Virus record (IMG/VR): IMGVR_UViG_3300030107_006221
Span: 1 to 44,454 of that record
Source of the DNA: a virus
Direction: 5' to 3' (one strand)
DNA: 44,454 nt
In this document: in pieces, positions 28,144 to 44,454 of the stretch
How positions within the stretch are numbered: position 1 is the stretch's first letter
Layout of the letters: each line of letters begins with the position of its first letter
The notes under the pieces: generated by a model
What the model was told of the DNA's origin: nothing
Seen by the model: only the letters and a program-made list of their open reading frames with translations
The model's database searches: none
Position numbers and translations under genes: made by a program

Positions 28144-28274
28144 ATATATATTCCTCCTAAATATAGCATGAGGCAAGGCATGTCGAGCTATACAAGACAC
28201 ACCAACCCCCTCAACCTAACTAGGGAGCAGTATCACGTTTAGAAGAAAAAAAATAATATATTTTTATCTCTCGA

Positions 28275-29045
28275 CTAGAAGATAAAATATTTGTCCGATC
28301 CATTGCTGTAAACATTAACTGCGGCAAATGGACTTTCTAATCTGATGCTTGAATAATCATCAATCTTTTGAGACCCAGAGGCCAAAATAAGAACAGTATG
28401 CGTTCCGGCAGTGCCATTTTCATCTTTAAAAATAAATGTCTGCCCACTTGTTAACGTTGAAGCATCTGGTAATCTTATATCTAAATCCGTTGAAGCAGAA
28501 ATTCCAATAAAATAATCCGATGCTGATGCTGTGATGGTCGAAGATATTTGTCTTCTTTTTAAAATTAAACCACCTTGTAAATTTAAAACACTACCATCAA
28601 ATGTTAAATTTGCCTCTCCATCAAGTTCTGTTGTTACTGCTCCAATCGTGACTAAACGATTTGCGGCCCTATTATTTAATTCAGATATCTTACCAGAAGA
28701 GCTTGTCAATACAATATTATTATTTGAATCAATTGCAATAAAACTGGAAGTCGTTGCTGTACCTGCTACAAGCCCAGCCAAATTGATTCCAGAGGAAGCT
28801 GAGAGTTTGGCTATCGACAGTGTGTCAGTTGTTGGATTATATGATAAAGATGCATCGCCCTCTAAATTTACCTCTCCCCCAACATCTTTGAAAAAAGGAA
28901 TCCTACCTCCGGCGGTGTCGCCGTATAAATCAAATTGCTTTACATTTTCCAGATTTGTTCCATCGCCGCCAAACGATCCTGTAAATGAACCAGATGAAAA
29001 TATACTAGTGGCTGAGACACTACCAGATAATATATTGTATCCCAT
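28275..29045 (-). CDS. Fibre-like protein with shared C-terminal beta domain, 256 aa
   Basis: Starts MGYNILSGSVSATSIFSSGS, sharing its first residues with the 579-residue fibre. A variable middle leads to a C-terminal domain (DIRLPDASTLTSGQTFIFKD ... SGSQKIDDYSSIRLESPFAA ... NGSDKYFIF) that is a close relative of those at 26245-28143 and 29063-29674. No membrane or signal segment. It is likely one of several alternative or co-assembled adhesin subunits. About 130 bases after it (28144-28274) hold no gene, only the ribosome binding site of the next gene. Confidence 0.65.
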   Translation of the reverse strand: MGYNILSGSVSATSIFSSGSFTGSFGGDGTNLENVKQFDLYGDTAGGRIPFFKDVGGEVNLEGDASLSYNPTTDTLSIAKLSASSGINLAGLVAGTATTSSFIAIDSNNNIVLTSSSGKISELNNRAANRLVTIGAVTTELDGEANLTFDGSVLNLQGGLILKRRQISSTITASASDYFIGISASTDLDIRLPDASTLTSGQTFIFKDENGTAGTHTVLILASGSQKIDDYSSIRLESPFAAVNVYSNGSDKYFIF

Positions 29046-30128: not shown

Positions 30129-30344
30129 CTAAGTAGTTTGTTTCCTACGTTTTGCTTCCTCTTTTCGCCGTCTTGCGTCTGAACGTTTCTTGGCTTTTCG
30201 TCTTCTTTCAGAGGGTTTAATATAGTGACGGCGTTCTTTGACCTCTTCTATAATTCCAAGTTTTTTAACTTTTTTATTAAATCTTTTTATTACTCTCTCA
30301 ATATTTTCATTCTTTCGAGGTCTAACTTTGTAATTACAAGCCAT
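30129..30344 (-). CDS. rpsU: Phage-encoded ribosomal protein bS21
   Basis: A 71-residue, very basic protein that fits bS21 along its length: VRPRKNENIERVIKRFNKK corresponds to E. coli VRENEPFDVALRRFKRS, then LGIIEEVKERRHYIKPSERR to GVLAEVRRREFYEKPTTER, followed by a Lys/Arg tail. Length matches E. coli bS21 (71). bS21 sits on the 30S platform near the anti-Shine-Dalgarno and promotes initiation. Phage copies are known from viral genome surveys and pelagiphages. This gene follows the leader-type protein gene by one base and lies in the structural operon, so it is probably made late. Host replacement of bS21 on ribosomes is an inference. Confidence 0.9.
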   Translation of the reverse strand: MACNYKVRPRKNENIERVIKRFNKKVKKLGIIEEVKERRHYIKPSERRRKAKKRSDARRRKEEAKRRKQTT

Positions 30345-30345
30345 T

Positions 30346-30765
30346 TTATTTATCCACCATTTTTGACCAATTGTGAGCCGAGGCCATTAAGGAACTAATA
30401 TCAACACCGGGGTCATTTGGTGCAACTCCGCTTAATGGCCCTTGTTGTTGAGTTTGTCCGGGTGATGGGGCGGATGTGGTTGGAGTAGTTCCTTCAAAAA
30501 GGTCTACACCATTGTATGCACCTGATCCGATTGAATCAAGAAGTTTTTTCTTTCGCTCTAAAATTTGTTTTCTCTTTTTCTCTCTTGCGGCTGTATTATC
30601 AATTTTTGGCTGGACGGGTTGAGTAGTTTCAACAATACGAGCAGCACCTGTACCTTTCATAACTTCTGCTATGACTGTTGATAAAAGGCCCTCTTCCAAT
30701 AAAACTTCATTAATACATTGCTTCACCAAAGGTTTTAGAACCTTTTTCAATTCATCTTTTTTCAT
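30346..30765 (-). CDS. Prohead-core-like protein with N-terminal helical leader
   Basis: A 139-residue protein beginning MKKDELKKVLKPLVKQCINE, then VLLEEGLLSTVIAEVMKG, a Lys/Arg-rich helix and a Pro/Thr/Gly/Gln-rich C-terminus. The N-terminal stretch is an amphipathic helix that I associate with proteins near gp21 in T4-like marine phages. Motifs such as LLEE and VLLEEG could be cut by gp21. It lies immediately after the protease gene, where T4 phages encode core proteins. A prohead-core role is plausible, not shown. Confidence 0.6.
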   Translation of the reverse strand: MKKDELKKVLKPLVKQCINEVLLEEGLLSTVIAEVMKGTGAARIVETTQPVQPKIDNTAAREKKRKQILERKKKLLDSIGSGAYNGVDLFEGTTPTTSAPSPGQTQQQGPLSGVAPNDPGVDISSLMASAHNWSKMVDK

Positions 30766-30777
30766 TATTTCCTCGGA

Positions 30778-31404
30778 CTAATCTTTTAATATCTTTTTAA
30801 ACAAATCTCCGATAATCTCGGCTTTGTTTTCATTAATCTTCTTTTCATAAATAGAAGCGGCTATGTTTTTTGATTTGTTATCAGGGTAAATATAAGCATC
30901 TGGTGTTGACGGCTCAGAAACAATATCAAAACAAATTAATTCAAAATCTTCTTGAACCATAGATGCTCCCATTTGTTCTTGGACCGACCCCATGCCTCTT
31001 GACGAAATACCAAGCTTAACACCGGAATTAACAAGATCTTTTACAACTTTACCTGATGGTGTATCCAAAATTTTGATCTTTCCGATAACATCATTGCCTT
31101 CCCACCAAATAGAAGTAATTAGATGAGATACATTGCGAAGATTAATAACTGAGTCGTCTGGATGGTCTAGTTCGCCCAATGCTCTATTGTCTTTTACAAT
31201 ACTCTCATATTTTTGTATTTCTCTTTTCAAAACATTACACGGATAGATTCGGCCATTTCCATTCTTCTTTTCGCAAGTTTGAATGCGACCGGAAAGATAA
31301 AGGGCACCATCGGCAACTTCTTTTTTCTCTCTTTCGGTCAAAAGGTCTTGACAGATTCCATCTTTGCATAATTCATAAAATTCTGTTAATAATTGTTTTG
31401 GCAT
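30778..31404 (-). CDS. 21: Prohead protease (gp21)
   Basis: A 208-residue protein. The pattern NRALGELDHPDD (catalytic His81) followed about 50 residues later by GVKLGISSRGMGS (catalytic Ser134 or 135) is that of the T4 gp21/herpesvirus-assemblin-type prohead proteases. N-terminal SGRIQTCEKKNGNGRIYP is also typical. gp21 cuts scaffold and capsid proteins after [L/I]-x-E during maturation. T4 gp21 is 212 residues. The gene lies between portal and capsid genes as expected. Confidence 0.9.
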   Translation of the reverse strand: MPKQLLTEFYELCKDGICQDLLTEREKKEVADGALYLSGRIQTCEKKNGNGRIYPCNVLKREIQKYESIVKDNRALGELDHPDDSVINLRNVSHLITSIWWEGNDVIGKIKILDTPSGKVVKDLVNSGVKLGISSRGMGSVQEQMGASMVQEDFELICFDIVSEPSTPDAYIYPDNKSKNIAASIYEKKINENKAEIIGDLFKKILKD

Positions 31405-31416
31405 TTTATTTCCTTG

Positions 31417-31857
31417 TTATCCGTAATATCTATCAACCTTATCATCAAGCTTTTCAGCAAAAGCTCGACCAACAGGATTATTTTTATCTGCGTCTAATTT
31501 ATCTTTTAAAGCATTGATATATTTTCTAGAACCACTAAATCCATATTGCGGAGATAAAGCAAGTATCATGTGTTGATCTAATGTCATCTCTCCTCTTTCG
31601 GGATGATTTGGGTGTTCTATGGCAAAGTCCCTTGGGACAATTGCATCCCAACGCCATGCTTTCTGCCACTGTTCATCTTCGGTGGGTGCGGTGGGTTTGG
31701 AAGCAGCAGATCTAGATGGAGCAGCCATAGAAGCCCTACTGGACTTGGGTGTTAATTCATAATCTATCTCATCCCATTTATGCTTTCGCCAACGACCTCT
31801 TGATTCTTCTATTTCTTCTTTAATAATTTGTATTAACCTTTCTTTTGTAATCTTCAT
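31417..31857 (-). CDS. Leader-family protein (MKITKERLIQIIKEEI)
   Basis: A 146-residue protein whose first 16 residues match the MKLTKEQLRKIIKEEL leader seen in genes at 37.7-39.6 kb. The rest (basic RGRWRKHKWDEIDYEL, Ser/Ala/Pro-rich linker, then WRWDAIVPRDFAIEHPNHPE and a helical end) is unlike the others. It is preceded by a terminator and a 19-codon frame, and followed by gp21. It may be packaged in the head or be a core protein. Function unknown. Confidence 0.65.
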   Translation of the reverse strand: MKITKERLIQIIKEEIEESRGRWRKHKWDEIDYELTPKSSRASMAAPSRSAASKPTAPTEDEQWQKAWRWDAIVPRDFAIEHPNHPERGEMTLDQHMILALSPQYGFSGSRKYINALKDKLDADKNNPVGRAFAEKLDDKVDRYYG

Positions 31858-31869
31858 TGTTGTAATTCC

Positions 31870-31897
31870 TTAAAAAATAAAAACGGGCGCAACCCGT
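31870..31897 (-). terminator. Rho-independent terminator downstream of the 19-codon frame
   Basis: Minus-strand stem ACGGG/CCCGT with loop TTGCG (31883-31897), followed by TTTTTATTTTTT. The stem is short but G/C rich. Confidence 0.75.
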
Positions 31898-31902
31898 CCG
31901 AG

Positions 31903-31962
31903 TTAGGATCCAGAGCAGCAACGACGAACTGGCTGAAGCATCCATTTAGTTGTCCAAGTCAT
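31903..31962 (-). CDS. Possible 19-residue peptide, coupled to membrane protein gene
   Basis: ATG 31962 overlaps the stop of the membrane-protein gene (ATGA) and has AGGAGAGG nine bases upstream. The frame reads MTWTTKWMLQPVRRCCSGS then TAA, just before a terminator. It is basic and has adjacent Cys residues. A real peptide, a leader or a chance frame are all possible. Confidence 0.35.
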   Translation of the reverse strand: MTWTTKWMLQPVRRCCSGS

Positions 31963-32303
31963 TTGTCCTCTCCTGTTTTATTAATTTTTAAACCACTGTC
32001 ATTAATTAGCATGGATAAAATGTATGAGGTTCCCGAAGCAACCCAGCCACATATAAACATGTTTCCAATGGAGTATTTGAAAGTAAATAGTTCTGTCCAT
32101 CCGTTTATGAAGAACAAAAACATTCCTACCCAAAATCCCATACACATAGCACAGTTCGCCATGTATCCAATAAGGCCGTATTGATCCCTTCGGGGCCGGA
32201 TAGATTCAAAAATTTTAGAATAAACTAAAATCTGTGTTAAGCCGTATGCGGCCAAAATAAACCAAATCATTCCTAAATCCAATTCTATTAATTGTACGTT
32301 CAT
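31959..32303 (-). CDS. DUF1360-like membrane protein
   Basis: A 114-residue protein with hydrophobic segments at about residues 10-28, 55-70 and 82-100, and the motif NCAMCMGFWVGM (C51xxC54) that recalls DUF1360-type small membrane proteins, where a CxxC-G-W pattern follows a helix. The R-P-R-R stretch (residues 36-39) is a likely cytoplasmic loop. It lies among head genes, unusual for a membrane protein. Role unknown. Confidence 0.6.
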   Translation of the reverse strand: MNVQLIELDLGMIWFILAAYGLTQILVYSKIFESIRPRRDQYGLIGYMANCAMCMGFWVGMFLFFINGWTELFTFKYSIGNMFICGWVASGTSYILSMLINDSGLKINKTGEDK

Positions 32304-32306
32304 TAG

Positions 32307-32897
32307 TTACTCGTAAAGGTATCGACCATAAACATATGGAGAGAAAAGGACACTCTGGTCGATTGATCCCTTATCAGCATCTTGCGGAACCTCACCAAGC
32401 TCAGTTGAATCAGCAGCATCGGGGTCGAGCAAAGCATCATCCATCATATCGTCATATGCTTCCATAGATTTAAAGTATGGCCGCTCTTCATTCATCCATT
32501 GACCAATTTCATACAATGAGGCTTTAATTGGATCAAGCTCTGTTGAATCTAAAATTAAAGCTTCAAGTGATCCATAGACATTTCCGCCTTGGATTGAATC
32601 AAAAGCAATAACGCCCTTTTTCTTGAGGTGTTGAAACAAACGACTCTCGGCTCCATATACCACTTCGGACATTAAATCTTTTGCGAAAGCAACAATCTTT
32701 TTTGATTCCAACATAACAACAATATCAATATCGGCATGGTCAAATATCATTAAGTCACCGTTTAGTGCTCTCCGCATGTTTAATTTAAATTCCAGCATTT
32801 GGCTTTCTGGTTCTGCAATTTTAACACTAATTGTCTCGTTTGCTGGCTGTTCGGTTGGCTCCGGTGTAGGGTTGGCAATATTTATTTTGATAGACAT
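32307..32897 (-). CDS. Unknown conserved-looking protein between portal and protease
   Basis: A 196-residue acidic protein: a Pro/Glu/Thr-rich N-terminus, a folded core (NMRRALNGDLMIFDHADIDI, VVYGAESRLFQHLKKKG, GSLEALILDS) and an Asp/Glu-rich C-terminus ending PYVYGRYLYE. ATG 32897 overlaps the preceding stop. By order, such genes between gp20 and gp21 are often prohead components (T4 gp67/gp68 position), but the sequence does not confirm it. Confidence 0.6.
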   Translation of the reverse strand: MSIKINIANPTPEPTEQPANETISVKIAEPESQMLEFKLNMRRALNGDLMIFDHADIDIVVMLESKKIVAFAKDLMSEVVYGAESRLFQHLKKKGVIAFDSIQGGNVYGSLEALILDSTELDPIKASLYEIGQWMNEERPYFKSMEAYDDMMDDALLDPDAADSTELGEVPQDADKGSIDQSVLFSPYVYGRYLYE

Positions 32898-33721
32898 TAT
32901 TCTAATACCTCAGAAACAAAATCTTGAATATAAAACACCTCTCTTACCAACTCTTCGGTAATTGGAATTTTTTTATAACTTTCAAGTTTTTCAAGAACTC
33001 TTTGAGTATTATCATAGAATTCTTTATTGTTTTTAATTTTATCTGTCTCAGAGCATCTTGTGACTTGTTCCTTGAGTCGGGCCACTTCTTCGTTCAAAAA
33101 CGATTTAAGGCCAAGTCCATTATCCGAGAAAGAAGTAATATAGTTCGTTAAAAGATCCTTTTGTTCTTTGCGAAGAGTCTTATCATAAGTTTCATTAAAT
33201 TTGTTAACGAATGTCTTGTATTCCAAACTATCAATATGTTTCATTTCTTGTTTTTCTTCTGTCTTTGTAGAAGTGAGCATTCCAACAACTCTTTGTTCCA
33301 AAATCAAACGAGTTTTAGCGTTTGTATTATCTGAATGAAAATACTGATACAAAGAACCGATGTTTTTATAATTTGAAATAAAGTTTGAGAAAACTGAATT
33401 TGAAAGAGATTCGTTTATCTCTTTAATCAAAGCTGTTTGTTGGTTGAAGATCTCTTTCTTATCAAGGCTGTTAAAGTCTTTTTTGACCTCAAATAAAAAC
33501 CGTCGAGAAAAATTCGGAGACATTTTATCTGCCTCTAAGACCAATTTATATATTTCTAATTCTCTTTTTAGTGGAGACTCAGCATTAAAATATTTTTTAA
33601 TGGTCTCCAAGATGTTTTGTTTTTTATCTTCTTGTCCTCGGACAATTGCTTTTGTTAATTCTGTGATTAATGATTCGTAAAGAAAAGCGGTGTTTCTTTT
33701 CTTATTGTGTTTTACTCTCAT
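32897..33721 (-). CDS. Unknown helical protein after portal, 274 aa
   Basis: A mainly helical, Lys/Glu-rich protein beginning MRVKHNKKRNTAFLYESLIT. It overlaps the portal gene end by 20 bases and the next gene by one, implying translational coupling. There is no membrane segment. I recall similar proteins downstream of gp20 in T4-like marine phages but no function. A head-assembly role is likely from context. Confidence 0.6.
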   Translation of the reverse strand: MRVKHNKKRNTAFLYESLITELTKAIVRGQEDKKQNILETIKKYFNAESPLKRELEIYKLVLEADKMSPNFSRRFLFEVKKDFNSLDKKEIFNQQTALIKEINESLSNSVFSNFISNYKNIGSLYQYFHSDNTNAKTRLILEQRVVGMLTSTKTEEKQEMKHIDSLEYKTFVNKFNETYDKTLRKEQKDLLTNYITSFSDNGLGLKSFLNEEVARLKEQVTRCSETDKIKNNKEFYDNTQRVLEKLESYKKIPITEELVREVFYIQDFVSEVLE

Positions 33722-35621
33722 TCTCTGTGTTCTCCAAGTTGTTTAAGCTTTCTAGAAGTTCGTTTACTTCTGATGATGTATTAAATAGTTTTTCTTCTTC
33801 TATTTTATCTAGTGTTTTGTTTTCTGTTACGCCCCTGACTAGTGAATCTAATCCACCAAAACCAGTTTTGCCTTTAAAAATGCTTCTGGTTGTGTTTCCA
33901 TACTCACCTGTGGCTTGATTTTTCATGTGTTTTGAAAACCCGCCTTTGCGATAATTTAGCTGATGTTTTTTATATGGTCCTCTGGTTTTGTCTTTTCTTT
34001 TACCGGGGGCGGCAAGAAGAACATCGTCATCTTCGCCACCGGCCCCTTCGTCGCCGCCTTCATCGCCGAGATCAAGCTCATCATCACCGCCAAGATCAAG
34101 TTCGCCGCCAGCATCATCATCACCGCCGAAATCAAGATCACCACCGCCACCGCTTTCGGGAACCTGCCCAGCGACTTCAAGGTCGGCCATAAATTTCCTA
34201 TCAAAGAACATTTCTCTCTGCATTCTAATAAATTCATCTTCGGAAATTCCAAACATATGTTCGGCAATCCATCGCATTGAAAAGAAGCCTTCGGTAGCAG
34301 CACCGGCGACATCAAATTTAGTTTTCCAATGTTCAAGTTCTTGAAGTTCAGCAATCTTTGAAGGGTTGTTCAAAGAGAGGCTAAAAGCCAAAAGATCGTC
34401 GCCTCTGAAACCTAATGTAAAAAGATGAATAATTCCAATCTTTTCTAACTCAGAAACAACCACTCTTTGTAATCTTTGAATAGTTCTAGCAAAGCGAATA
34501 TCTTTTTGTGCTAAGGTTGTTTTGTCTTCTTGTGCTCCATCGCCCATAACAAGATACGATTGAGGAACTTTGAGAGCAGCAAATAATTTTTCTCTTAAAT
34601 ACTTAACATCTTCAACAGTTCCTGTAAACTGACCACCGGGAAGGTTTATAATCTCTGTTCCAGAGGTTCCACCACGGATAGGAATAAAATAATCTTCTTC
34701 AATTGATAAAGGATTATATCGAAGGTCAACACGACCAGTTTTTGGATCAACTACTTGGTGTCGTTTCATTTGAGTCATAACTTTCTGCATATATTGTTCA
34801 ACATCATTTGGTGAGATATTACCAACATCAATTTTAAATACTCGCCTTTCTGGGCTTCTTACGATACGATAAGCCATCATTGCATCTTCAAGCAATGTCA
34901 ATTGTCTCCAAATACGTCGAGCAGGTTCAAGAACCGAAGTTCCATAAGGGGCGTGTTTATCATTACCAAGAATACGAAAGTGAGCCATCTGCCAGTTTTC
35001 AAGAGTCATACCAGCACTGTTCCATTGATATTGGACATAGTTTGGATTTGAATCATCCTCTCCCTCTAATCTTTCAATTTCTTGTGGAGGCAAGCCAATT
35101 ACGCTTCTTATTCCCATTTTGTCATCAATATCCAAATATAAAAACAAGTCTCCATACTTACACATTGTACGAGACCAACCAAATAAGTTATGATCGATAT
35201 TTAAAACATTGTGATACAAAGAATGTAAAATAGATTTTATTTCTTCGTTAGGGCACTTAATTCTCAACATAGGTTGTAAAGAAGAATGAGTGGTCATTTC
35301 ATCAGCATAAATATCAATAGCAGAAGCAATAATTGGTTCGTATTCCATCTGATCGAAATCAATATACCTCTCATTGCGATTTCTATTAGAAATCATATTA
35401 AGGGCCATAATATTCATTGGGTTATATTCAGTCTTTTTAAACTGCTGTCCCGATGCAGATCTAAATTTAGATGAATACATATCCAGATGTCTTCTTGATA
35501 ATTGTCTACCAGTCTGGGTTCGCCTCTGAGTCAGAGGGCCCGAGAACAGTCTCGTTAGTTGTTTAAATAAACCTGATTCATTATTATATGGGTTCTTGGT
35601 ATTTTTTCTTCTTTGTGCCAT
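33702..35621 (-). CDS. 20: Portal protein (gp20) with Asp/Gly-rich segment
   Basis: A 639-residue protein (T4 gp20: 524). Typical gp20 sequence includes NRNERYIDFDQMEYEPIIAS, IYADEMTTHS, VRSPERRVFKIDVGNI, PGGQFTGTVEDVKYLREKLF and LKVPQSYLVMGDGAQEDKTT, a set I recognise from T4-type portals. It forms the dodecamer at the head vertex for packaging and tail joining. Near the C-terminus a Gly/Asp-rich low-complexity block (GGGDLDFGGDDDAGGELDLG and onward to about 34020) precedes a basic KRKDKTRGPYKKHQ tail. This extension accounts for the extra length. Confidence 0.9.
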   Translation of the reverse strand: MAQRRKNTKNPYNNESGLFKQLTRLFSGPLTQRRTQTGRQLSRRHLDMYSSKFRSASGQQFKKTEYNPMNIMALNMISNRNRNERYIDFDQMEYEPIIASAIDIYADEMTTHSSLQPMLRIKCPNEEIKSILHSLYHNVLNIDHNLFGWSRTMCKYGDLFLYLDIDDKMGIRSVIGLPPQEIERLEGEDDSNPNYVQYQWNSAGMTLENWQMAHFRILGNDKHAPYGTSVLEPARRIWRQLTLLEDAMMAYRIVRSPERRVFKIDVGNISPNDVEQYMQKVMTQMKRHQVVDPKTGRVDLRYNPLSIEEDYFIPIRGGTSGTEIINLPGGQFTGTVEDVKYLREKLFAALKVPQSYLVMGDGAQEDKTTLAQKDIRFARTIQRLQRVVVSELEKIGIIHLFTLGFRGDDLLAFSLSLNNPSKIAELQELEHWKTKFDVAGAATEGFFSMRWIAEHMFGISEDEFIRMQREMFFDRKFMADLEVAGQVPESGGGGDLDFGGDDDAGGELDLGGDDELDLGDEGGDEGAGGEDDDVLLAAPGKRKDKTRGPYKKHQLNYRKGGFSKHMKNQATGEYGNTTRSIFKGKTGFGGLDSLVRGVTENKTLDKIEEEKLFNTSSEVNELLESLNNLENTENESKTQ

Positions 35622-35626
35622 TTTTC

Positions 35627-37210
35627 TTATCCTTTATAAATCCAAAGAAAATCTTTTATTTGCTCTTTTGCATCTAATTGTTTTTCTTTAAGGTCTGATC
35701 CGTATCCATTCATGCCTTTTATAGCAGTGTTCATTGTTGTTTTGTTTAAGTACATAGAATTTAACATCGCTTTTTTATATTCTACATCTCTCTGGTTAAC
35801 CTGTAATGCCGTGTCTCTAACCCAACAAGCGATAGCCAAAGACATCACCAAATCGTCATGATACGATCGCATGGCTTGTGGTTTTCCATTTTTCCAAATG
35901 AAAGTTTTAAATTCATGAAAAGTTCTTGACGAATAGATGTTTAACATTTTATTTCTTATAAACTCCTCAAGTTTTGCTACAATCAAAGGACGAGTTTTAG
36001 TTGAAGTTGTAAAACCAGCAACTGCTCCATCCATGGCTTCGCCTTGGACAGATTCAACAAACTCATGTGTCGATTTAATTGAATAATAGAGATTTGGATA
36101 ACCGAGAGTAATTAGTTTTTCCAAGATGGATATACCAATTCCATTGTTTTCAACAACTAGAAGACAATTTCCATATTCTGTTCCCGCTGAAAATAACATT
36201 TGAGAATACATATCCAAATTTGGCTTGCCTTGGTATTCAGCTACAATCTCCATCGTTTCTAATTTTAAAACATGGAATACAGAATTATCGGCACCGTCGC
36301 CTCTTGCAACATCTGCAACAAGTAAATAACTGTTACCTTCATTATATTTCTCCCAAATCCAAAAGTTCCTATCATGACCTGTTCTATATTGTGGCTCACG
36401 AATAGTATTATTTAACCAAGCAATATCATCAGGGTGAATCACTGTGTCGCCTGATGTGTTAAAGTTGCATTCTAACTCTTGTGCTATTTGTCTCCGAGAC
36501 ATGTTCTTTGTCTCTTTCTCAAACCATTCTTGATTTCTTTCGGGATGAACATCCCAAGGGAGACAGACCGGATGAAAATCATTCTCTTTATTATCGGCAT
36601 CAACATAGGTTTTGTGAAACCAGTTTCCAACACCGTTTGGAGTCGAAAGAGCGATACAGCGACCACCAGTTGATAGAGTGGGATATAAACCAGTCCAGAG
36701 TTCTTTTAGGCCATCGACGTGTGCGGCCTCATCAATAACTAAAAGCGAAAGAGCTTCAGAACGACCAGCATCACCAGAAGTGGAAGCAGCTTTAATTTGA
36801 GAGCCATTTGATAGTTCAAACGATGTTCTGTTGTCGATTGAAATTGTAGCCACTTGTAACCAAGGTGGTAAATTCTTCATGATATGTTTTACTTTTTTTA
36901 CCAAGTTGGCAGCAGTGGCAAATTTAGTTGCGATAACCAAAACATTCTTATCACGATGAAACAACATAAGCCACACACAATATGCGGCTGTAATAGTTGA
37001 GATCCCCAACTGTCGGGCTTTTAGGATAACTGTAAAGCGGAAATCGTTATAGTCGTTTAATAAATCATCTTGATACGGATAAGTTTTAAACGGAACGAGA
37101 CCTTTCAGTGGGTGCGAGATCCTACAAAAATTATTTGTAAAATAAACCGGATCTTTCCCGCATTTAAGGATTTCTTTTACAATCTCCTTTTTTGAGAGTT
37201 TAAAAGACAT
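35627..37210 (-). CDS. 17: Large terminase subunit (gp17)
   Basis: A 527-residue packaging motor. The N-terminal ATPase has ILKARQLGISTITAAY (Walker A region, residues 63-77), SLLVIDEAAH (Walker B, VIDE at 157-160) and ALSTPNG (coupling motif, about 186-192). The C-terminal RNase-H-like nuclease has LLVADVARGDGAD (Asp299), LLVVENNG (Glu353) and YHDDLVMSLAIA near the end. T4 gp17 is 610 residues. The Walker A lacks the usual GKT Lys (here GIS), as in some other terminases with RQLGxS. It sits between the 180-residue gene and the portal. Confidence 0.95.
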   Translation of the reverse strand: MSFKLSKKEIVKEILKCGKDPVYFTNNFCRISHPLKGLVPFKTYPYQDDLLNDYNDFRFTVILKARQLGISTITAAYCVWLMLFHRDKNVLVIATKFATAANLVKKVKHIMKNLPPWLQVATISIDNRTSFELSNGSQIKAASTSGDAGRSEALSLLVIDEAAHVDGLKELWTGLYPTLSTGGRCIALSTPNGVGNWFHKTYVDADNKENDFHPVCLPWDVHPERNQEWFEKETKNMSRRQIAQELECNFNTSGDTVIHPDDIAWLNNTIREPQYRTGHDRNFWIWEKYNEGNSYLLVADVARGDGADNSVFHVLKLETMEIVAEYQGKPNLDMYSQMLFSAGTEYGNCLLVVENNGIGISILEKLITLGYPNLYYSIKSTHEFVESVQGEAMDGAVAGFTTSTKTRPLIVAKLEEFIRNKMLNIYSSRTFHEFKTFIWKNGKPQAMRSYHDDLVMSLAIACWVRDTALQVNQRDVEYKKAMLNSMYLNKTTMNTAIKGMNGYGSDLKEKQLDAKEQIKDFLWIYKG

Positions 37211-37752
37211 TATTTCCTAGTGTCGTTGCTTGGCCTCTTCTTAGAATTAAGAGAAAGAAAATCTCTGATTGCTTTATCTACTGTGTCCTCGGAGGGAGAT
37301 AACACTGGCTCTGAATCAACACCGGAGATTTTAAACCATCGGTAAGCTTGGACAAAAGAGCGAACGCGAGATGTTGATTGAGCAAGAACTTTAATTTCTT
37401 CATCTTTCACAGGAGTAATTCTAACTGATTCGCCAGTGATGGCTTTATATTCTTTTTGTAAGAATTTTTTAATATCATTAATTTTTCTTTCCATCTCGGC
37501 TTCAAAGCCACCAGCATAAATATCTTTAAGTTTAATATCTGATTGATATACAATGCACATCGCATCACCGGAAAATTTAACTTTAAACCCATCAATAACT
37601 CTTGAATCAAGAATTGGATCACCTTCTTCGCGATTGAGACCAATCTTTCGTGCTTTTCCATCGGCAGCATATCGTTCATCATGCGAGCCGTCATAAGCAT
37701 TTGCGGCTGCTTGTGCGATACCTTGTACGATTTTTAGTGTGTTTGAGCTCAT
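37210..37752 (-). CDS. Unknown protein before large terminase (gp16 position)
   Basis: A 180-residue protein with an Ala-rich helix at the start (GIAQAAANAYDGSHD), then REEGDPILDSRVIDGFKVKF, a beta segment and a long helix (FEAEMERKINDIKKFLQKEY). It overlaps the terminase ATG by one base. T4 has small terminase gp16 here. The sequence does not show an obvious small-terminase DNA-binding domain, so this may be another conserved phage protein. Confidence 0.6.
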   Translation of the reverse strand: MSSNTLKIVQGIAQAAANAYDGSHDERYAADGKARKIGLNREEGDPILDSRVIDGFKVKFSGDAMCIVYQSDIKLKDIYAGGFEAEMERKINDIKKFLQKEYKAITGESVRITPVKDEEIKVLAQSTSRVRSFVQAYRWFKISGVDSEPVLSPSEDTVDKAIRDFLSLNSKKRPSNDTRK

Positions 37753-37763
37753 TTAGTAATCCT

Positions 37764-38117
37764 CTATTTTTTTCGGGTTCGGCGTTTTTTTGTTTCGGCC
37801 ATTTTAACTTGGGCAATTTTGGCTTCTCTACATTTGTCTATTTGGGCTTGGATATCAGCGACAATCATGTCGCCATACGCCATCTCGTTATCATATGATA
37901 ATCCATGCTTCCAACTACCAGATTCCAAATGTTGTTCTAATTTCTTGTAATTACAATCAAGATATCCCGGTAAATTCATTCTTATTTTTTCGATTGCTTG
38001 TTCGACAGATAACTCATCAGATGCTGGTCCGGGTTCACTTGGCAATTCGATCTTTTCTTTGATCTTTCCAAGCTCTTCTTTAATAATTTTTCTAAGTTGT
38101 TCTTTTGTTAATTTCAT
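37764..38117 (-). CDS. Leader-family protein, 117 aa
   Basis: ATG 38117 (MKLTKEQLRKIIKEELGKI) is chosen over the upstream TTG because GGAG lies about nine bases before it. The leader is followed by an acidic linker, a helical domain (VEQAIEKIRMNLPGYLDCNY), and a basic tail ending KKRRTRKK. The first 57 bases of the gene region are identical to those of the gene at 38972-39220. A packaged, DNA-associated protein is a speculation from leader and basic tail. Confidence 0.7.
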   Translation of the reverse strand: MKLTKEQLRKIIKEELGKIKEKIELPSEPGPASDELSVEQAIEKIRMNLPGYLDCNYKKLEQHLESGSWKHGLSYDNEMAYGDMIVADIQAQIDKCREAKIAQVKMAETKKRRTRKK

Positions 38118-38118
38118 T
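38062..38118. repeat. 57-bp direct repeat, copy 1
   Basis: Identical over 57 bases to 39165-39221 (offset 1103). It covers the leader codons MKLTKEQLRKIIKEELGK and the base before ATG. Flanks diverge at once. Confidence 0.9.
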
Positions 38119-38491
38119 GTTTTGGTCTCCAACCTTTATTCCACCTATCTTCGCGCCCCTCAACCCATTGGATGTAACATTTTTCACAACAATCAAACTT
38201 CGTCATATAGACATCATCATTTGATTTAAAAGAATATGTTTTACAAATCGGACAAGATCGCTCGGATTCTTTATTAAGTAGTTTTTTCGGAATAAAAACC
38301 CCATTTACTTCTTCTCGATCAAAATCTTCTTTGTCTTCATAGTATTTGTGTGTTTCTTTTAGTTGAGCCAAATACTCTTTTTCTTTCTCGTCTGTCCAAT
38401 TGCTCTTCGGGTGTTGTATTGTTTCTTCACCATATTTCTTCGCAATTGCTTTCTCAACTTTTACTGTGTAATTCGGATCCTTTTTGCTCAT
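38114..38491 (-). CDS. Zinc-ribbon protein of unknown function
   Basis: ATG 38491 overlaps the preceding stop (ATGA), giving 125 residues. The N-terminal part is charged and helical. The C-terminal half has CPICKTYSF (C80, C83) and FDCCEKCYIQW (C101/C102, C105), a zinc-ribbon pattern, then GREDRWNKGWRPK. I associate such a C-x2-C...CC-x2-C protein with T4-like marine phages but know no function. It overlaps the next gene by four bases. Confidence 0.7.
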   Translation of the reverse strand: MSKKDPNYTVKVEKAIAKKYGEETIQHPKSNWTDEKEKEYLAQLKETHKYYEDKEDFDREEVNGVFIPKKLLNKESERSCPICKTYSFKSNDDVYMTKFDCCEKCYIQWVEGREDRWNKGWRPKQ

Positions 38492-38916
38492 CGCAACCCC
38501 GGTGTAATAGCATACATAATGCCGATTGCTGCCCCCGCGCCAACTGTGAAGCCACCAATAGCCCACCAATGGGCATTTGAAGGGCGAACATACTTTTCTA
38601 AACTCTGAATGTGTTGATCTCGAATACTAATCACATCGGTAAATCGTTGATTGTCTGCTTCTGATTTAGCATAAAGAATATCGTATTTATATTGTGAAGT
38701 GGCATTTGCTTGTCCAACTTCAAAATCTACTCTCAATTTGCATTCAAGATTTCTGAACTGGTGATCGACAATCAGTTTTGAAACTGCTGGATCATTAAAT
38801 AAACGACCGTCAAAGGGGGCTACGTCTCCTTCTTTGAGGTTTGTGAATTTCGCTTCTTCCGCTCCATTTGCCGCTGACGACCAAGCCAGCAAAAAGCCCA
38901 TAAGTACATGTTTCAT
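38488..38916 (-). CDS. Exported/membrane protein with signal peptide and C-terminal membrane helix
   Basis: A 142-residue protein: a signal peptide (MKHVLMGFLLAWSSAANGA, cut likely after ANGA), a periplasmic region with GDVAPFDGRLFNDPAVS and a helical coil, then a C-terminal membrane segment (HWWAIGGFTVGAGAAIGIMY). This topology resembles phage envelope proteins near lysis genes that I have seen with 'APFDG' motifs. There is no lipobox Cys. GGAGGAG precedes ATG 38916, and a near-perfect sigma70 promoter lies 24-52 bases upstream. A lysis or envelope-modifying role is possible. Confidence 0.65.
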   Translation of the reverse strand: MKHVLMGFLLAWSSAANGAEEAKFTNLKEGDVAPFDGRLFNDPAVSKLIVDHQFRNLECKLRVDFEVGQANATSQYKYDILYAKSEADNQRFTDVISIRDQHIQSLEKYVRPSNAHWWAIGGFTVGAGAAIGIMYAITPGLR

Positions 38917-38939
38917 TTCTCCTCCAAATAATCGATTAT

Positions 38940-38968
38940 ATTATAACACACTTTTTAGAGTTTGTCAA
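38940..38968 (-). promoter_or_regulatory. Consensus sigma70 promoter
   Basis: Minus strand: -35 TTGACA (38963-38968), a spacer of exactly 17 nt, and -10 TATAAT (38940-38945). Both hexamers are perfect. The expected start site near 38933 gives a leader of about 17 nt before the ribosome binding site and ATG 38916. Confidence 0.9.
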
Positions 38969-38971
38969 GTG

Positions 38972-39220
38972 TTAATCTTCTGGGTCAACTTTCCCAAGCC
39001 AATTAATTAACGGAGTTGCGCTTTCCTTGCTAGAGTCCGCGAGGGCATCTTCTCCGGCATTTGCTTTATGGTTATCACCGTCTTTACGGAACTTCTTGAT
39101 CAGACGGTTCGCTTTTTCTTTCATTGCATTAAAATTTCCCTCAGAGCGTTCTTCTTCCGATAGAATCTTTCCAAGCTCTTCTTTAATAATTTTTCTAAGT
39201 TGTTCTTTTGTTAATTTCAT
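38972..39220 (-). CDS. Leader-family protein, 82 aa
   Basis: Begins MKLTKEQLRKIIKEELGKI, followed by an acidic, Ser/Asn-rich short domain (SEEERSEGNF, KANRLIKKFRKDGDNHKANA) and ends GKVDPED. Its first 57 bases equal those of the gene at 37764-38117. ATG 39220 overlaps the upstream stop. No known domain. Confidence 0.65.
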   Translation of the reverse strand: MKLTKEQLRKIIKEELGKILSEEERSEGNFNAMKEKANRLIKKFRKDGDNHKANAGEDALADSSKESATPLINWLGKVDPED

Positions 39221-39221
39221 T
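39165..39221. repeat. 57-bp direct repeat, copy 2
   Basis: Identical to 38062-38118. A third, imperfect copy lies at about 39603-39649 (at least three mismatches) in the next leader gene. Confidence 0.9.
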
Positions 39222-39648
39222 TTTTGTTTTCCATATAATCATGACGACCGGATGGAGCGGATAGGTCGGAAATTTTCTTAAACCATTCTTTTTTGGCTGT
39301 CCAAATACGCGGATCTGGTGGGGTCTTGCCTTTTTCGATGTTCCAGTCTTCTGGCCAAGGGTGGTTTTTCAGCACCTTTTCCATGCATTCCCAATCCAGT
39401 ATTGGCCTGCCTTCTCCGTCGACATCACGGCAATGCGGATCCGCAGCATCAAAGACCTTCATATAATAATCATAATCTTCTTGAAATTTCTCTGGGTTGT
39501 TGATTTTATACCGATCTTCAATCCAATCTTGGAATTCGTCCTGTCTATCCCGAAACCGGCCAGAGCCGGAGTACTGCTTTTCCGACATCATTACGGCTTG
39601 GAGTTCTTCTTTAATAATTTGTTTAAGTTGTTCTTTTGTTAATTTCAT
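39217..39648 (-). CDS. Leader-family protein, 143 aa
   Basis: Leader MKLTKEQLKQIIKEELQAVM, then a Tyr/Asp/Trp-rich domain (DRQDEFQDWIEDRYKINNPE, CRDVDGEGRPILDWECMEKV, LKNHPWPEDW), mostly charged. AAGGAG precedes ATG 39648. It overlaps the next leader gene by four bases. The C-terminal domain is unrelated to other leader genes by eye. Confidence 0.65.
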   Translation of the reverse strand: MKLTKEQLKQIIKEELQAVMMSEKQYSGSGRFRDRQDEFQDWIEDRYKINNPEKFQEDYDYYMKVFDAADPHCRDVDGEGRPILDWECMEKVLKNHPWPEDWNIEKGKTPPDPRIWTAKKEWFKKISDLSAPSGRHDYMENKK

Positions 39649-39654
39649 TTTTTA

Positions 39655-40395
39655 TTAATCTCCTTGTTTTTGGTTGTGTCTAAGGATTTTATCTTTTTCA
39701 TTGACTATGGTGGAAGCCAATCTTCTTAATCTGTAATACTCGGATCGTTCTTCTTTGGTGAAATCTTTGATGGACTTACCCAAGTCATTTGCCATTTGTT
39801 TCAGAAGACCGGAAGACCAATCGTCCAGCCACCTTCTTTTGTCAAAGTCGGGTCCTGATTGGTCTATAACTTGATCGATCATTGCGCCGATTTCTCTGGC
39901 TTTTTCTTCTGTCGCATTTTCGCTAATTCTATTTTGTCTTCGCGCTTGTTGTCTTTTTGCAATACGTTTATTTTCATCCTCATCGGGATCATGATCTTTG
40001 GATTTGGTAGCTGGGTCGAGCAGTTGAGTAACTTTCATGGCAATTGGTAAAGAAGCGACACCTATCATGCCAAGATGTTTAAGAGCATCAAGAACCATCA
40101 TAACATTATCTGGCGTGATGTGTTCCAAAGATGGCGACTCTATAAGTGTATTGTCTGTATTTGTTTCACGAATTTCATCAAACATCATATTGATCATACC
40201 CATAATATCGTCACGATCAAGATTATTGGTTGTTACAAGGTTTTCAAACTCACCATAGATTTCTTTTGGAGAAAGACGTTTGGGCATATCAAGTGCATTA
40301 TACATTTCATCTTTATCGCCCATGTCGTGATAATGACCTTTTTTCTGTACCTCTTCTTGAATAAATTTTTTAAGTAATTTTGCTGTAAGTTTCAT
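39655..40395 (-). CDS. Leader-family protein, 246 aa
   Basis: Leader MKLTAKLLKKFIQEEVQKKG, more divergent at the DNA level. It is followed by an acidic helical domain with IYGEFENLVTTNNLDRDDIM and a hydrophobic middle (KHLGMIGVASLPIAMKVTQL) that may be one membrane-like helix, then Asp/Lys/Arg-rich stretches. It is the largest member of the family. No recognised fold. Confidence 0.6.
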   Translation of the reverse strand: MKLTAKLLKKFIQEEVQKKGHYHDMGDKDEMYNALDMPKRLSPKEIYGEFENLVTTNNLDRDDIMGMINMMFDEIRETNTDNTLIESPSLEHITPDNVMMVLDALKHLGMIGVASLPIAMKVTQLLDPATKSKDHDPDEDENKRIAKRQQARRQNRISENATEEKAREIGAMIDQVIDQSGPDFDKRRWLDDWSSGLLKQMANDLGKSIKDFTKEERSEYYRLRRLASTIVNEKDKILRHNQKQGD

Positions 40396-40409
40396 AATTT
40401 TTCCTCTAA

Positions 40410-41132
40410 TTAAATTTTATCAACGTGCTTCGCAAATCTATATTTCAATCTTTTAGCATCACCGACAGTACCCATAATAGCATCCTTATCAGAGTTAAAT
40501 GCTTTTTTTATGTCTTCCATAGTAATATCAGGAAGTCTTGGCGTTGGGTCACCGGGGTGAAAGGTCCAAACAACAAACTTTTTAGGATCTTCTCTGGATG
40601 GCCCAACAAGTAAAGTTGTATGTTTTGTCTCACGTTGGGCGGTCGGTATCACTGTCACTACTTCGGCTAATACCATTCCAAATTTTGGACTTTTTTTATC
40701 CTGTACTGTTGCTTTTCCAAAGTGAGCAGGTTGAAAGCGAACTGGTTGATCATCTGGGAGTCCAGCAATCTCTGCTACTCCCAGATAGCCCGGAATGGAA
40801 GCTTTGAACCCAACAGCAGGAGAATTAATTGCGGGATGAGGATATTTTTCCCACTCTGCATTCACTAAATCTTTAAGTGTCTGTGATTTTTGAAAAACAC
40901 TGCCGACCGAATCTCCACCGGGGTTACGACGAGCGACACTATCTTCAAGATATTGTTGATCTGTATTTTGAAACGCCTGTTTTGGACTAACTATGGATTC
41001 CTTTTCTTCTGGTTCGGGCTCTTCAACAGGAGCGGCATCAACCGGCTCTTCTGTCTCTTCTTCATTTTCTTTGACGTATCTCCGCCAATTCTCAAATAAC
41101 TTTTGCTGTTTTGTAAAGCTTGAATATTTCAT
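40410..41132 (-). CDS. Unknown protein with different N-terminal helix, possible head protein
   Basis: A 240-residue protein starting MKYSSFTKQQKLFENWRRYV, followed by a Glu/Pro-rich linker and a folded domain (GYLGVAEIAGLPDDQPVRFQ, HTTLLVGPSREDPKKFVVWT, FHPGDPTPRLPD). The N-terminal amphipathic helix followed by an acidic linker resembles the leader arrangement of its neighbours but not their sequence. Its ATG overlaps the preceding small gene stop (ATGA). Confidence 0.6.
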   Translation of the reverse strand: MKYSSFTKQQKLFENWRRYVKENEEETEEPVDAAPVEEPEPEEKESIVSPKQAFQNTDQQYLEDSVARRNPGGDSVGSVFQKSQTLKDLVNAEWEKYPHPAINSPAVGFKASIPGYLGVAEIAGLPDDQPVRFQPAHFGKATVQDKKSPKFGMVLAEVVTVIPTAQRETKHTTLLVGPSREDPKKFVVWTFHPGDPTPRLPDITMEDIKKAFNSDKDAIMGTVGDAKRLKYRFAKHVDKI

Positions 41133-41947: not shown

Positions 41948-44454
41948 CTATTTTAAAACAACATTAGCATATCCATCAATTTTATCTATATCGATGGTCA
42001 TGTCTACAACATCTTTTAATGATTCAAGGTGAGATACGAGCAATACAATCTTAAATTGTGTCTTTACCATTTCTAACAAACGAACAAATCCTTCCATGTG
42101 CTCGGCATCCAATGCTGTTGCTGGCTCATCAAGCACAAAAAGGTTTCCAACTGGTAGGTTAGTAATTGAAATCATACCAAGTCGTATGGCCATAGAAGCT
42201 AATGTCTTCTCAGCACCAGAGGCCATGGAAAGAGGACGGGGCTCATATGCTGGATGTTTGATAAAAATATCTAACTTGTTGTCTGTGTTGTCAAAAAAGA
42301 CCTCGAAGTCAACGATGTTGGCCAGAACCTTTCCTATTTCTTCATTAATAATTGGAAGACGGTCTTTGATGATATTATATGAGATTCCATTGGCGTGCAT
42401 ACATCGCATGAACATTTCATAAGCAACCCACTTGTTTTCATAGCCCTTATACTCTTCAAGTTCCTTCTCGATGTTCTTTATGATTTGGGCGGTTGATCCC
42501 TGTTCAATAAGACATTCTTGCAACTGCTCATTACATTTAGTATATACTTCTCGCAGTTGGGATAGCTTTGTTTCAAGTGCTTTCTTTTCTCTCGTAAGTG
42601 TTCCAAGGTTTTCGATGGCTTCTCTATTTTCTTCATATTCCGCTTCCTGATTTCTTAAACTTTCTATTTGATTCTTTAAAAGATTCAATTTGTCTTTATT
42701 AGACGATAGTTCCATAGATTTTATTTCATTTTGATTCTCTAATTGATCAATATCTTGAGAGAACTTATTGTGTCTCTCAATATTAGAAGCAATAACTTCT
42801 GGATTTATAAAGTTTATTTTTTCTTGTATGTCTGCGACAAACTCTTGTAATTCCTCAATCATTTTGGTTGTGGGCATTATCTTAGTTGAAGCTTCGTGAG
42901 CATCTTTTACAAACTGATTGCCTACACAATACTTGCAATTAGGATCATACTGGTGTTCGTCGAGAAGCTTGACTTTTGATTTCAAGTTTTCTAATACTTT
43001 TGTTTGCTGATTTAATTTTAATGTTATTATTGATTTTCGTTCTTTGTGAGTTTTACAAGTTTCATTTAGAGAAATAAGTTGCTCATAATTTAAATCATCA
43101 AGAACCATTTTATATTGCTCTACAAACTCTTCATTATTTGATATTTCTTTTTGAAGATCGATATTCTCATGTAGAATTCTCTTAACATCTTCTTCTTTAA
43201 AAACAATATCGGCTTTAACTTTATCAATATCAATTATCTCTGCTGGTATTGAAGATATGATATCTTCAACTTCTTTTAACTTACCGGTGAAAGATTCAAC
43301 TGATTTTGTTGTCTTTTGGCATTCTTTTTTCTTGCTCTCAATTGCTTCAACAATTTCTTCTAAAAGTTCTTGATTTTTGGTTATCTCTTCAAGATAATTC
43401 TTTGCTTCAAACTTCTTAATTAAAGTTTTAATATCAGCGGAGTCCTTTTTGGCTAATTTAAACTTCTGATCGAAGATATCCAAGTCAAGGAATTTAGCAA
43501 TAATTTCTTTCCTCTTCGTCGAACCTTCTTTGATAAACGACAGGGAGTCAAGCTGTGAGGCCATAGAGGTTAGTAGGAAGTCGTCAATCGTACCAAACTT
43601 CCTTCTGATATTAGCATCGGTTTCGTTGCGAGTAGTTCCATTTAAACTCTCATCAACTCCACCAATTTCTTTTGTAAAATCAAGATCAACCTTTGCTTCG
43701 ATTGTTTCCTTGCCTTTTAACTTTCTTGTATACTTGTTCAGATTACGAGCAATCTTATATGTCGCATTATCTGATTCTATTTCAAGAAGAATTTTAGCAT
43801 CTTGTTTGTTCTGGTTGATTATGTGGACGTTTTTTCTTTCATTCTTAGAAGTTGTATTATACATTCCGTATAAAACACTATCAATAATAGAAGATTTACC
43901 GGAGTAGTTCTTACCAAAAATACCCACGATACCATTAAGTCGATCAAAGTTGATAGTGTTCTTTTCGCCATAGTTAAAAAGATTGTCCCAAGACGCACTC
44001 TTAAGTTTCCAAATAACATTTCTTGTTATCTCCTCGTTTTCCTCAACGGTTTGATTGTATTTTCTGTTTAATTCCAACACCTTATCCATGATTCCATCAT
44101 CGAGTTCCATGTCTTTAAGGTATTTTCTAATATATTTCTCTTGTACTGTAATATCCCGAAGGTTCTCTTTCTTTAAAGCATCGGAAAGGTTTGTCTTTTG
44201 GTTATCTTTATGACCCGTCTTAACACTAAATGAAACACTTGTTGGTCGCCATTTAACCTTAGCAAAGTCCATCGCTCTTTTCATTTTAATTGGAGGTATA
44301 AGATTAGAACCAATCAATCTCAATCGACAACCAACAGGGATATCATCTTTGGGTAATTGACCTGTCTTGGTCAATACAACATTAATAAACGGACGAGGGT
44401 TATTAAGCTTGTTAAACTTAACCTTAAAGTCGGTCTTGTTGTTAATATACCACA
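41948..44454 (-). CDS. 46: Rad50/gp46-like recombination ATPase with Mre11/gp47-like N-terminal part, 5' end beyond the right edge
   Basis: At least 834 residues; the frame is open to the right edge, so the start is missing (TTG 44374 is only an internal codon). Walker A GKNYSGKSS is at about visible residues 180-188, the zinc-hook CKYC near 506 between long coiled coils, the ABC signature ASGAEKTLASMA near 742, and Walker B LFVLDEPATALD near 771, followed by an H-loop SH. These define a Rad50/SbcC/gp46 ATPase. Rad50 proteins normally start a few residues before Walker A. Here over 150 residues precede it, with LNNPRPFINVVLTKTGQLP and IPVGCRLRLIGS, resembling the Mre11/SbcD cap domain. T4 gp46 and gp47 are separate. 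It processes DNA ends for recombination-dependent replication. Confidence 0.85.
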   Translation of the reverse strand, partial: WYINNKTDFKVKFNKLNNPRPFINVVLTKTGQLPKDDIPVGCRLRLIGSNLIPPIKMKRAMDFAKVKWRPTSVSFSVKTGHKDNQKTNLSDALKKENLRDITVQEKYIRKYLKDMELDDGIMDKVLELNRKYNQTVEENEEITRNVIWKLKSASWDNLFNYGEKNTINFDRLNGIVGIFGKNYSGKSSIIDSVLYGMYNTTSKNERKNVHIINQNKQDAKILLEIESDNATYKIARNLNKYTRKLKGKETIEAKVDLDFTKEIGGVDESLNGTTRNETDANIRRKFGTIDDFLLTSMASQLDSLSFIKEGSTKRKEIIAKFLDLDIFDQKFKLAKKDSADIKTLIKKFEAKNYLEEITKNQELLEEIVEAIESKKKECQKTTKSVESFTGKLKEVEDIISSIPAEIIDIDKVKADIVFKEEDVKRILHENIDLQKEISNNEEFVEQYKMVLDDLNYEQLISLNETCKTHKERKSIITLKLNQQTKVLENLKSKVKLLDEHQYDPNCKYCVGNQFVKDAHEASTKIMPTTKMIEELQEFVADIQEKINFINPEVIASNIERHNKFSQDIDQLENQNEIKSMELSSNKDKLNLLKNQIESLRNQEAEYEENREAIENLGTLTREKKALETKLSQLREVYTKCNEQLQECLIEQGSTAQIIKNIEKELEEYKGYENKWVAYEMFMRCMHANGISYNIIKDRLPIINEEIGKVLANIVDFEVFFDNTDNKLDIFIKHPAYEPRPLSMASGAEKTLASMAIRLGMISITNLPVGNLFVLDEPATALDAEHMEGFVRLLEMVKTQFKIVLLVSHLESLKDVVDMTIDIDKIDGYANVVLK

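Follow-up and report, generated by a model that had tools for sequence, protein, structure and literature searches.

The stretch of DNA analysed here (the window) is a 44,454-base virus record (IMGVR_UViG_3300030107_006221), and all coordinates given below refer to the whole stretch. A T4-like head module, including the gp21 and gp23 genes, is located on its minus strand (Table 1). Five genes on the same strand have in common an N-terminal peptide, MK[IL]TKxQL[KR]xII[KR]EE, referred to as the class A leader. From residue 23 onward, the remainders of the five proteins exhibit no mutual BLAST similarity (best match E = 0.28, chance level). One of these genes adjoins a gp21-type prohead protease gene, identified by PF03420, and the other four are positioned upstream of the terminase. 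The terminase/portal block, which separates gp21 from these four genes, was assigned by position and from the annotated relatives immuto and Mel-JY01. The original prediction had described the locus in these terms, and its account of the five leader genes, their unrelated remainders and both genomic positions was confirmed.

Table 1. Leader genes and head-module genes of the window, with approximate leader positions.
Feature	Coordinates	Strand	Leader	Details
Class A leader gene, directly upstream of gp21	31417–31857	−	~31792–31857 (MKITKERLIQIIKEEIEESRGR)	[LIVMF]xE ends at residues 14 and 18
Class A leader gene	37764–38117	−	~38052–38117 (MKLTKEQLRKIIKEELGKIKEK)	IxE ends at residues 14 and 21
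Class A leader gene	38972–39220	−	~39155–39220 (MKLTKEQLRKIIKEELGKILSE)	[IL]xE ends at residues 14 and 22
Class A leader gene	39217–39648	−	~39580–39648 (MKLTKEQLKQIIKEELQAVMMSE)	IxE at residue 14, MxE at residue 23
Class A leader gene, divergent	39655–40395	−	~40330–40395 (MKLTAKLLKKFIQEEVQKKGHY)	Internal IxE at residue 14 only
Class B (FENWR) leader gene	40410–41132	−	~41067–41132 (MKYSSFTKQQKLFENWRRYVKE)	
gp21-type prohead protease (Peptidase_S77)	30778–31404	−		PF03420 E = 5.6e-31; phrog_207 E = 1.4e-62
gp23-type major capsid protein	19764–21572	−		PF07068 E = 8.8e-74
Gene after gp21, amphipathic N-terminus	30346–30765	−		Many [LIV]xE sites; conserved

An I-x-E motif ends at residue 14 in all five class A genes of the window. 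Additionally, a second [LIVMF]xE is observed at residues 18–23 in four of them, the exception being 39655–40395, whose relatives in three other loci (L475–L477) keep the leader. The start of 37764–38117 is an ATG within a slightly longer TTG-initiated ORF. Comparison of the window leader proteins with family collections returned weak, sub-cut-off matches only; a match to phiKZ_IP (E = 0.027) fell below the family cut-off and was not used. Two further minus-strand genes, 38114–38488, which contains a CxxC-rich stretch, and 37210–37752, are located between the leader island and the terminase, where they frame the variable leader region; both are strongly conserved, in more than 80 fetched loci each. 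A large ORF at 41948–44374 (−) resembles, by eye, an SbcC/gp46-type recombination ATPase. Three fibre-like proteins (22709–24448, 26245–28200 and 28275–29045, all −) begin alike, with a short M[SG]YNILSG-type sequence that is unrelated to the leaders.

Two neighbouring genes, 40410–41132 and 30346–30765, had been suggested to play the same role as the five. The first carries a widespread leader of another class, described below. The second groups with the leader proteins in an unbiased comparison of N-termini; its entire sequence, however, is conserved in at least 17 loci. This pattern is more like that of a fixed head gene than that of variable cargo, and the gene product is probably a prohead core component. 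A small basic ORF at 30129–30344 (−) resembles ribosomal protein bS21, and in Microcystis phage Mel-JY01 an annotated RpsU is found at the equivalent position past the prohead protease gene.

The distribution of the class A leader was surveyed in IMG/VR with a degenerate DNA pattern that covers the leader as far as codon 15, which selects on residues 1–15 and leaves residues 16 onward unselected. The pattern was found in at least 120 stretches, and the listed stretches together with the window hold at least 289 class A leader proteins, often several per locus and, among the matches listed, up to 13 in one record. The phages that bear them are nearly all uncultured and T4-like, and mostly aquatic. 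Among the matches listed, the 277 proteins of at least 60 amino acids fell into 203 remainder clusters, 163 of which contained a single protein. In a set of 84,980 bacterial and archaeal species, each represented by one genome, the pattern was present on only four contigs, all from metagenome-assembled genomes, and one of these also bears gp21. Among 50,697 phage records, no close class A match was detected; the sole hit, at 55% identity, was a 484-kb uncultured phage in which four of the leaders have VNE, LQE, LRE or LME where the end motif is expected. Literature searches returned nothing relevant on the leader peptide sequences, no account of leaders of this kind in marine phages, and no proteomics of immuto or of these leader-bearing phages.

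The end of the leader is sharply marked. Across the 203 clusters from the matches listed, conservation is visible up to residue 22, which is Glu in 48%, and is near background from residue 23. An [LIVMF]xE motif ends at E21 in 51 of these 203 clusters and at E22 in 82 (together 133/203), compared with 18 of 382 non-leader ORFs (4.7%) from loci selected by gp21. When residues 15–30 are considered, the motif is present in 176 of the 203 clusters, and shuffling the same residues gave a mean of 116 and a maximum of 137. Two observations count against a cleavage reading: the site at E21/22 is absent in about a third of the class A clusters, and the residue that follows it is not mainly Ala, unlike in most of the T4 sites read here. 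The leader had been described as ending in IIKEE. The invariant I-x-E at residue 14 agrees with this placement, but the likeliest cut is near residue 21–22.

The class B leader, MKxLFENWR[KR][YF]LxE, is the type found on 40410–41132. Scanning with MKxLFENWR identified 129 proteins in 74 remainder clusters. Glu is present five residues past the selected Arg in 87%, and [LIVMF]xE ends at this unselected position in 62 of the 74 clusters. Conservation stops directly after the site; in several members that contain insertions, an [LI]xE is found a few positions downstream. For 40410–41132 itself, the search for relatives gave leader-level matches only (residues 1–25), and the leader recurs alone in four loci (L468–L471). 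A homolog of the protein (L039:7837–8571, 49% identical) begins with a different N-terminus, KLLVESFKNFMEDGDFSP, which is possibly a fourth leader type. An AlphaFold2 model of 40410–41132, built with two sequences, had a mean pLDDT of 33 and was discarded.

The class C leader, FDLKKFLxENKLTxNSxxLxE, was first seen in Flavobacterium phage immuto (NC_055915.1), the only cultured carrier found (host Flavobacterium sp. LMO8), in which at least six proteins bear class A-like or class C leaders. Scanning for this class identified 113 proteins, which form 61 clusters; the site lies at +6 in 44 of these and at +5 in a further 12 (56/61). In classes A, B and C alike, the frequency of [LIVMF]xE drops to approximately background past the leader. 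Furthermore, an internal [LI]xE (IKE, LFE or LVE type) lies within the selected core of every class, which may allow a second cut. Processing is argued for most strongly by the fact that three unrelated peptides have the same end motif at a sharp boundary.

The gp21 domain (PF03420) was detected in 34 of 55 class A, 17 of 41 class B and 15 of 24 class C records. Among records of at least 100 kb, the corresponding figures are 17/19, 14/15 and 3/3, or 34 of 37 in total. gp23 is likewise missing from each of the 21 class A records without gp21, which are therefore probably fragments that lack the head region. Random contigs contained gp21 in 0 of 35 cases, these controls being shorter, mostly below 80 kb, and so not length-matched. 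Since T4-like common ancestry may explain part of the co-occurrence, the presence of gp21 is a necessary rather than a sufficient indication of a functional link.

When loci were selected solely by similarity to gp21, leader genes were located either ahead of the terminase, at −10 to −6 kb, or no more than about 1 kb from gp21; one was found at −2 kb and none among the downstream tail genes. A comparison of the N-termini of ORFs with unrelated remainders in these loci yielded one dominant group, comprising 44 ORFs from 27 remainder clusters, and the same comparison in an equal sample of random contigs yielded no group of more than two clusters. Whole records no longer than 200 kb contain 73 class A copies, of which 39 are located at most 20 kb upstream of gp21, against 10 expected (records treated as circular). 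The anticipated recurrence beside gp21 and the terminase thus holds for the gp21-selected loci and for many phages of this size, but not for records above 200 kb, where none of the 50 copies lies within this distance and leader genes are far from gp21. In T4, the ip genes are located ~30–40 kb from gene 21, so distance does not exclude a role in the head.

The gp21-adjacent slot was compared in five close relatives of the window (gp21 DNA 89–94% identical; 700 nt upstream 86–93%), all of which keep 13–16 of 16 leader residues. The cargo of the window gene, 31417–31857, is the same in one of these relatives and is replaced by unrelated cargo in the others. Where relatives differ in cargo, identity at the DNA level takes in the sequence immediately preceding the ATG together with the first ~16 codons, and stops there. 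At about 20–45 bases upstream of 31857 (−), a G+C-rich inverted repeat is followed by a T-run (ACGGGTTGCGCCCGTTTTT); this element looks like a terminator and is kept in relatives with different cargo.

The remainders of classes A and C are mostly orphans in comparisons with Pfam and PHROGs; Pfam matches were obtained for a few of 100 class A representatives and for 2 of 45 in class C. Class B cargo includes more recognisable domains, namely protein kinase, Nudix, HD, exonuclease, amidase and nucleotidyltransferase, and in one protein (L157) the Nudix domain begins at residue 21, directly past the leader. A by-eye guess that two other class B cargos (L155 and L159) are Alt-like ADP-ribosyltransferases found no Pfam support and is not claimed.

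Based on these sequence patterns, we propose, with a probability of roughly 75%, that the leaders are capsid-targeting sequences cut by gp21, and that the cargo behind them is retained in the head for possible delivery to the host. As the head assembles, the short amphipathic N-terminal helix would dock its protein onto the prohead core. The proposed processing enzyme, in the window the gp21-type protease of Table 1, would then cut after [LIVM]-x-E at the leader end, at about residue 21–22 in class A, 14 in class B and 22–24 in class C. After removal of the leader, the mature cargo would stay inside the head, from which it could be ejected into the host along with the DNA. Recombination at the leader would swap the cargo behind the tag, so that each phage would have a changing set of virion-borne proteins. 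Capsid targeting was the central suggestion of the original prediction, and what it implies at the level of sequence was borne out: unrelated proteins with one leader, the gp21 motif at unselected positions, phages that encode gp21, and exchange of cargo. Encapsulation peptides of bacterial microcompartments, which are short amphipathic helices addressing different enzymes into a protein shell, provide an analogy only; they are non-viral and, in contrast to what is proposed for the leaders, are not removed at a protease site.

The closest comparison is with T4, where we take the cut positions to be MKTYQEFIAE/A in IPII and IPIII, MAKINELLRE/S in gp24 and MLKEQLIAE/A in gp22, and where exchange of the site Glu for Asp is reported to block the cutting of IPIII. 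With their N-terminal L/I-x-E, these four substrates fit the motif after which T4 gp21 cleaves (PMC9026906). Among the major capsid proteins, the position of the known gp23 cut site of T4 (LTE) is occupied by LRE in the window (residues 57–59), VSE in immuto and ISE in Mel-JY01, and the RM378 protein was not clearly aligned. As in T4 IPI–III and Alt, a short N-terminal peptide is common to otherwise different proteins; it ends at a gp21-type L/I-x-E in most clusters of the three classes, although not in every member, and an S77 prohead protease is encoded by the window and by the 34 of 37 larger records. The internal-protein cargo of T4 likewise varies between related phages (PMC9026906). The sequences themselves differ: class A leaders (14–22 residues) have Thr4 and Gln7, unlike the aromatic targeting residues Tyr4 and Phe7 of T4 (PMC9026906), and the likeness of class B (MKLLFENWRKYLNE) to MKTYQEFIAE is confined to layout. 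These phages also differ from T4 in having several unrelated leader classes and hundreds of cargo types. Most likely, the leaders would work in the mode of the T4 internal proteins, with different leader sequences and a much larger set of swappable cargo.

Inner head and ejection proteins of the giant phages SPN3US, phiKZ and 201phi2-1 carry N-terminal propeptides that are removed after Glu by the prohead protease (PMC5694885). The leaders resemble these in being N-terminal segments that end at the Glu of a predicted prohead protease site. The phiKZ-type propeptides are mostly longer than 100 residues and protein-specific (PMC5694885), whereas the present leaders comprise 14–24 residues and are common to many proteins.

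Among other explanations, we regard as unlikely one in which the leader proteins belong to the prohead core or scaffold, in the manner of T4 gp67/gp68, and are placed in the core by the leader and degraded by gp21, with a function in head shaping and no delivery to the host. [LI]xE sites are likewise present at the N-termini of T4 core proteins, which are reported to be cut into fragments (PMC9026906); furthermore, many class A cargos are small and charged, and the conserved 30346–30765 has the same N-terminal style. Close relatives, however, exchange this cargo, unlike a structural core. Class B cargo includes kinase, Nudix and exonuclease domains, and further sites past the leader are at about background in all three classes. 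Still less probable is an uncut docking helix that ties accessory proteins to the portal, terminase, replication or tail machinery, with gp21 playing no part. The amphipathic character of the leader, the several copies that adjoin terminase and portal genes and the distance from gp21 in large phages are consistent with such a helix, but it would not predict that conservation ends sharply at a protease motif in three unrelated classes.

Across phages, the mean entropy of the class A leader is 0.62, 0.39 and 1.11 bits at codon positions 1, 2 and 3, respectively; third positions vary and second positions do not, so the leader is under selection as a peptide. A recombination arm or expression element acting in cassette exchange at the DNA level, without protein function, would fit the identity that spans the pre-ATG flank and ~16 codons and then stops, but it is highly improbable and is rejected as a full explanation on this codon-position variation, and classes B and C differ in sequence yet have the same end motif.

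If the leaders do act as capsid-targeting sequences, the tag would serve as a search key by which proteins that are packaged into virions, and probably injected, could be recognised across a large set of uncultured phages. Orphan leader proteins would gain a common fate, with functions in early host take-over and counter-defence indicated, and several unrelated tags would have arisen for one protease. A broader reading, for and against which we see the balance as even, is one of modular delivery: in uncultured aquatic T4-like phages, several independently arisen head tags would be carried by fast-changing proteins, enzymes among them, that are exchanged through recombination at the tag, and each virion would inject an effector cocktail that can be read from the tag. 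As a cultured phage, immuto makes the head-targeting reading testable. In this phage, gp077, annotated as an adenosyltransferase, and neighbours in the ferredoxin region bear class C or class A-like leaders, so some current annotations may name cargo from weak matches.
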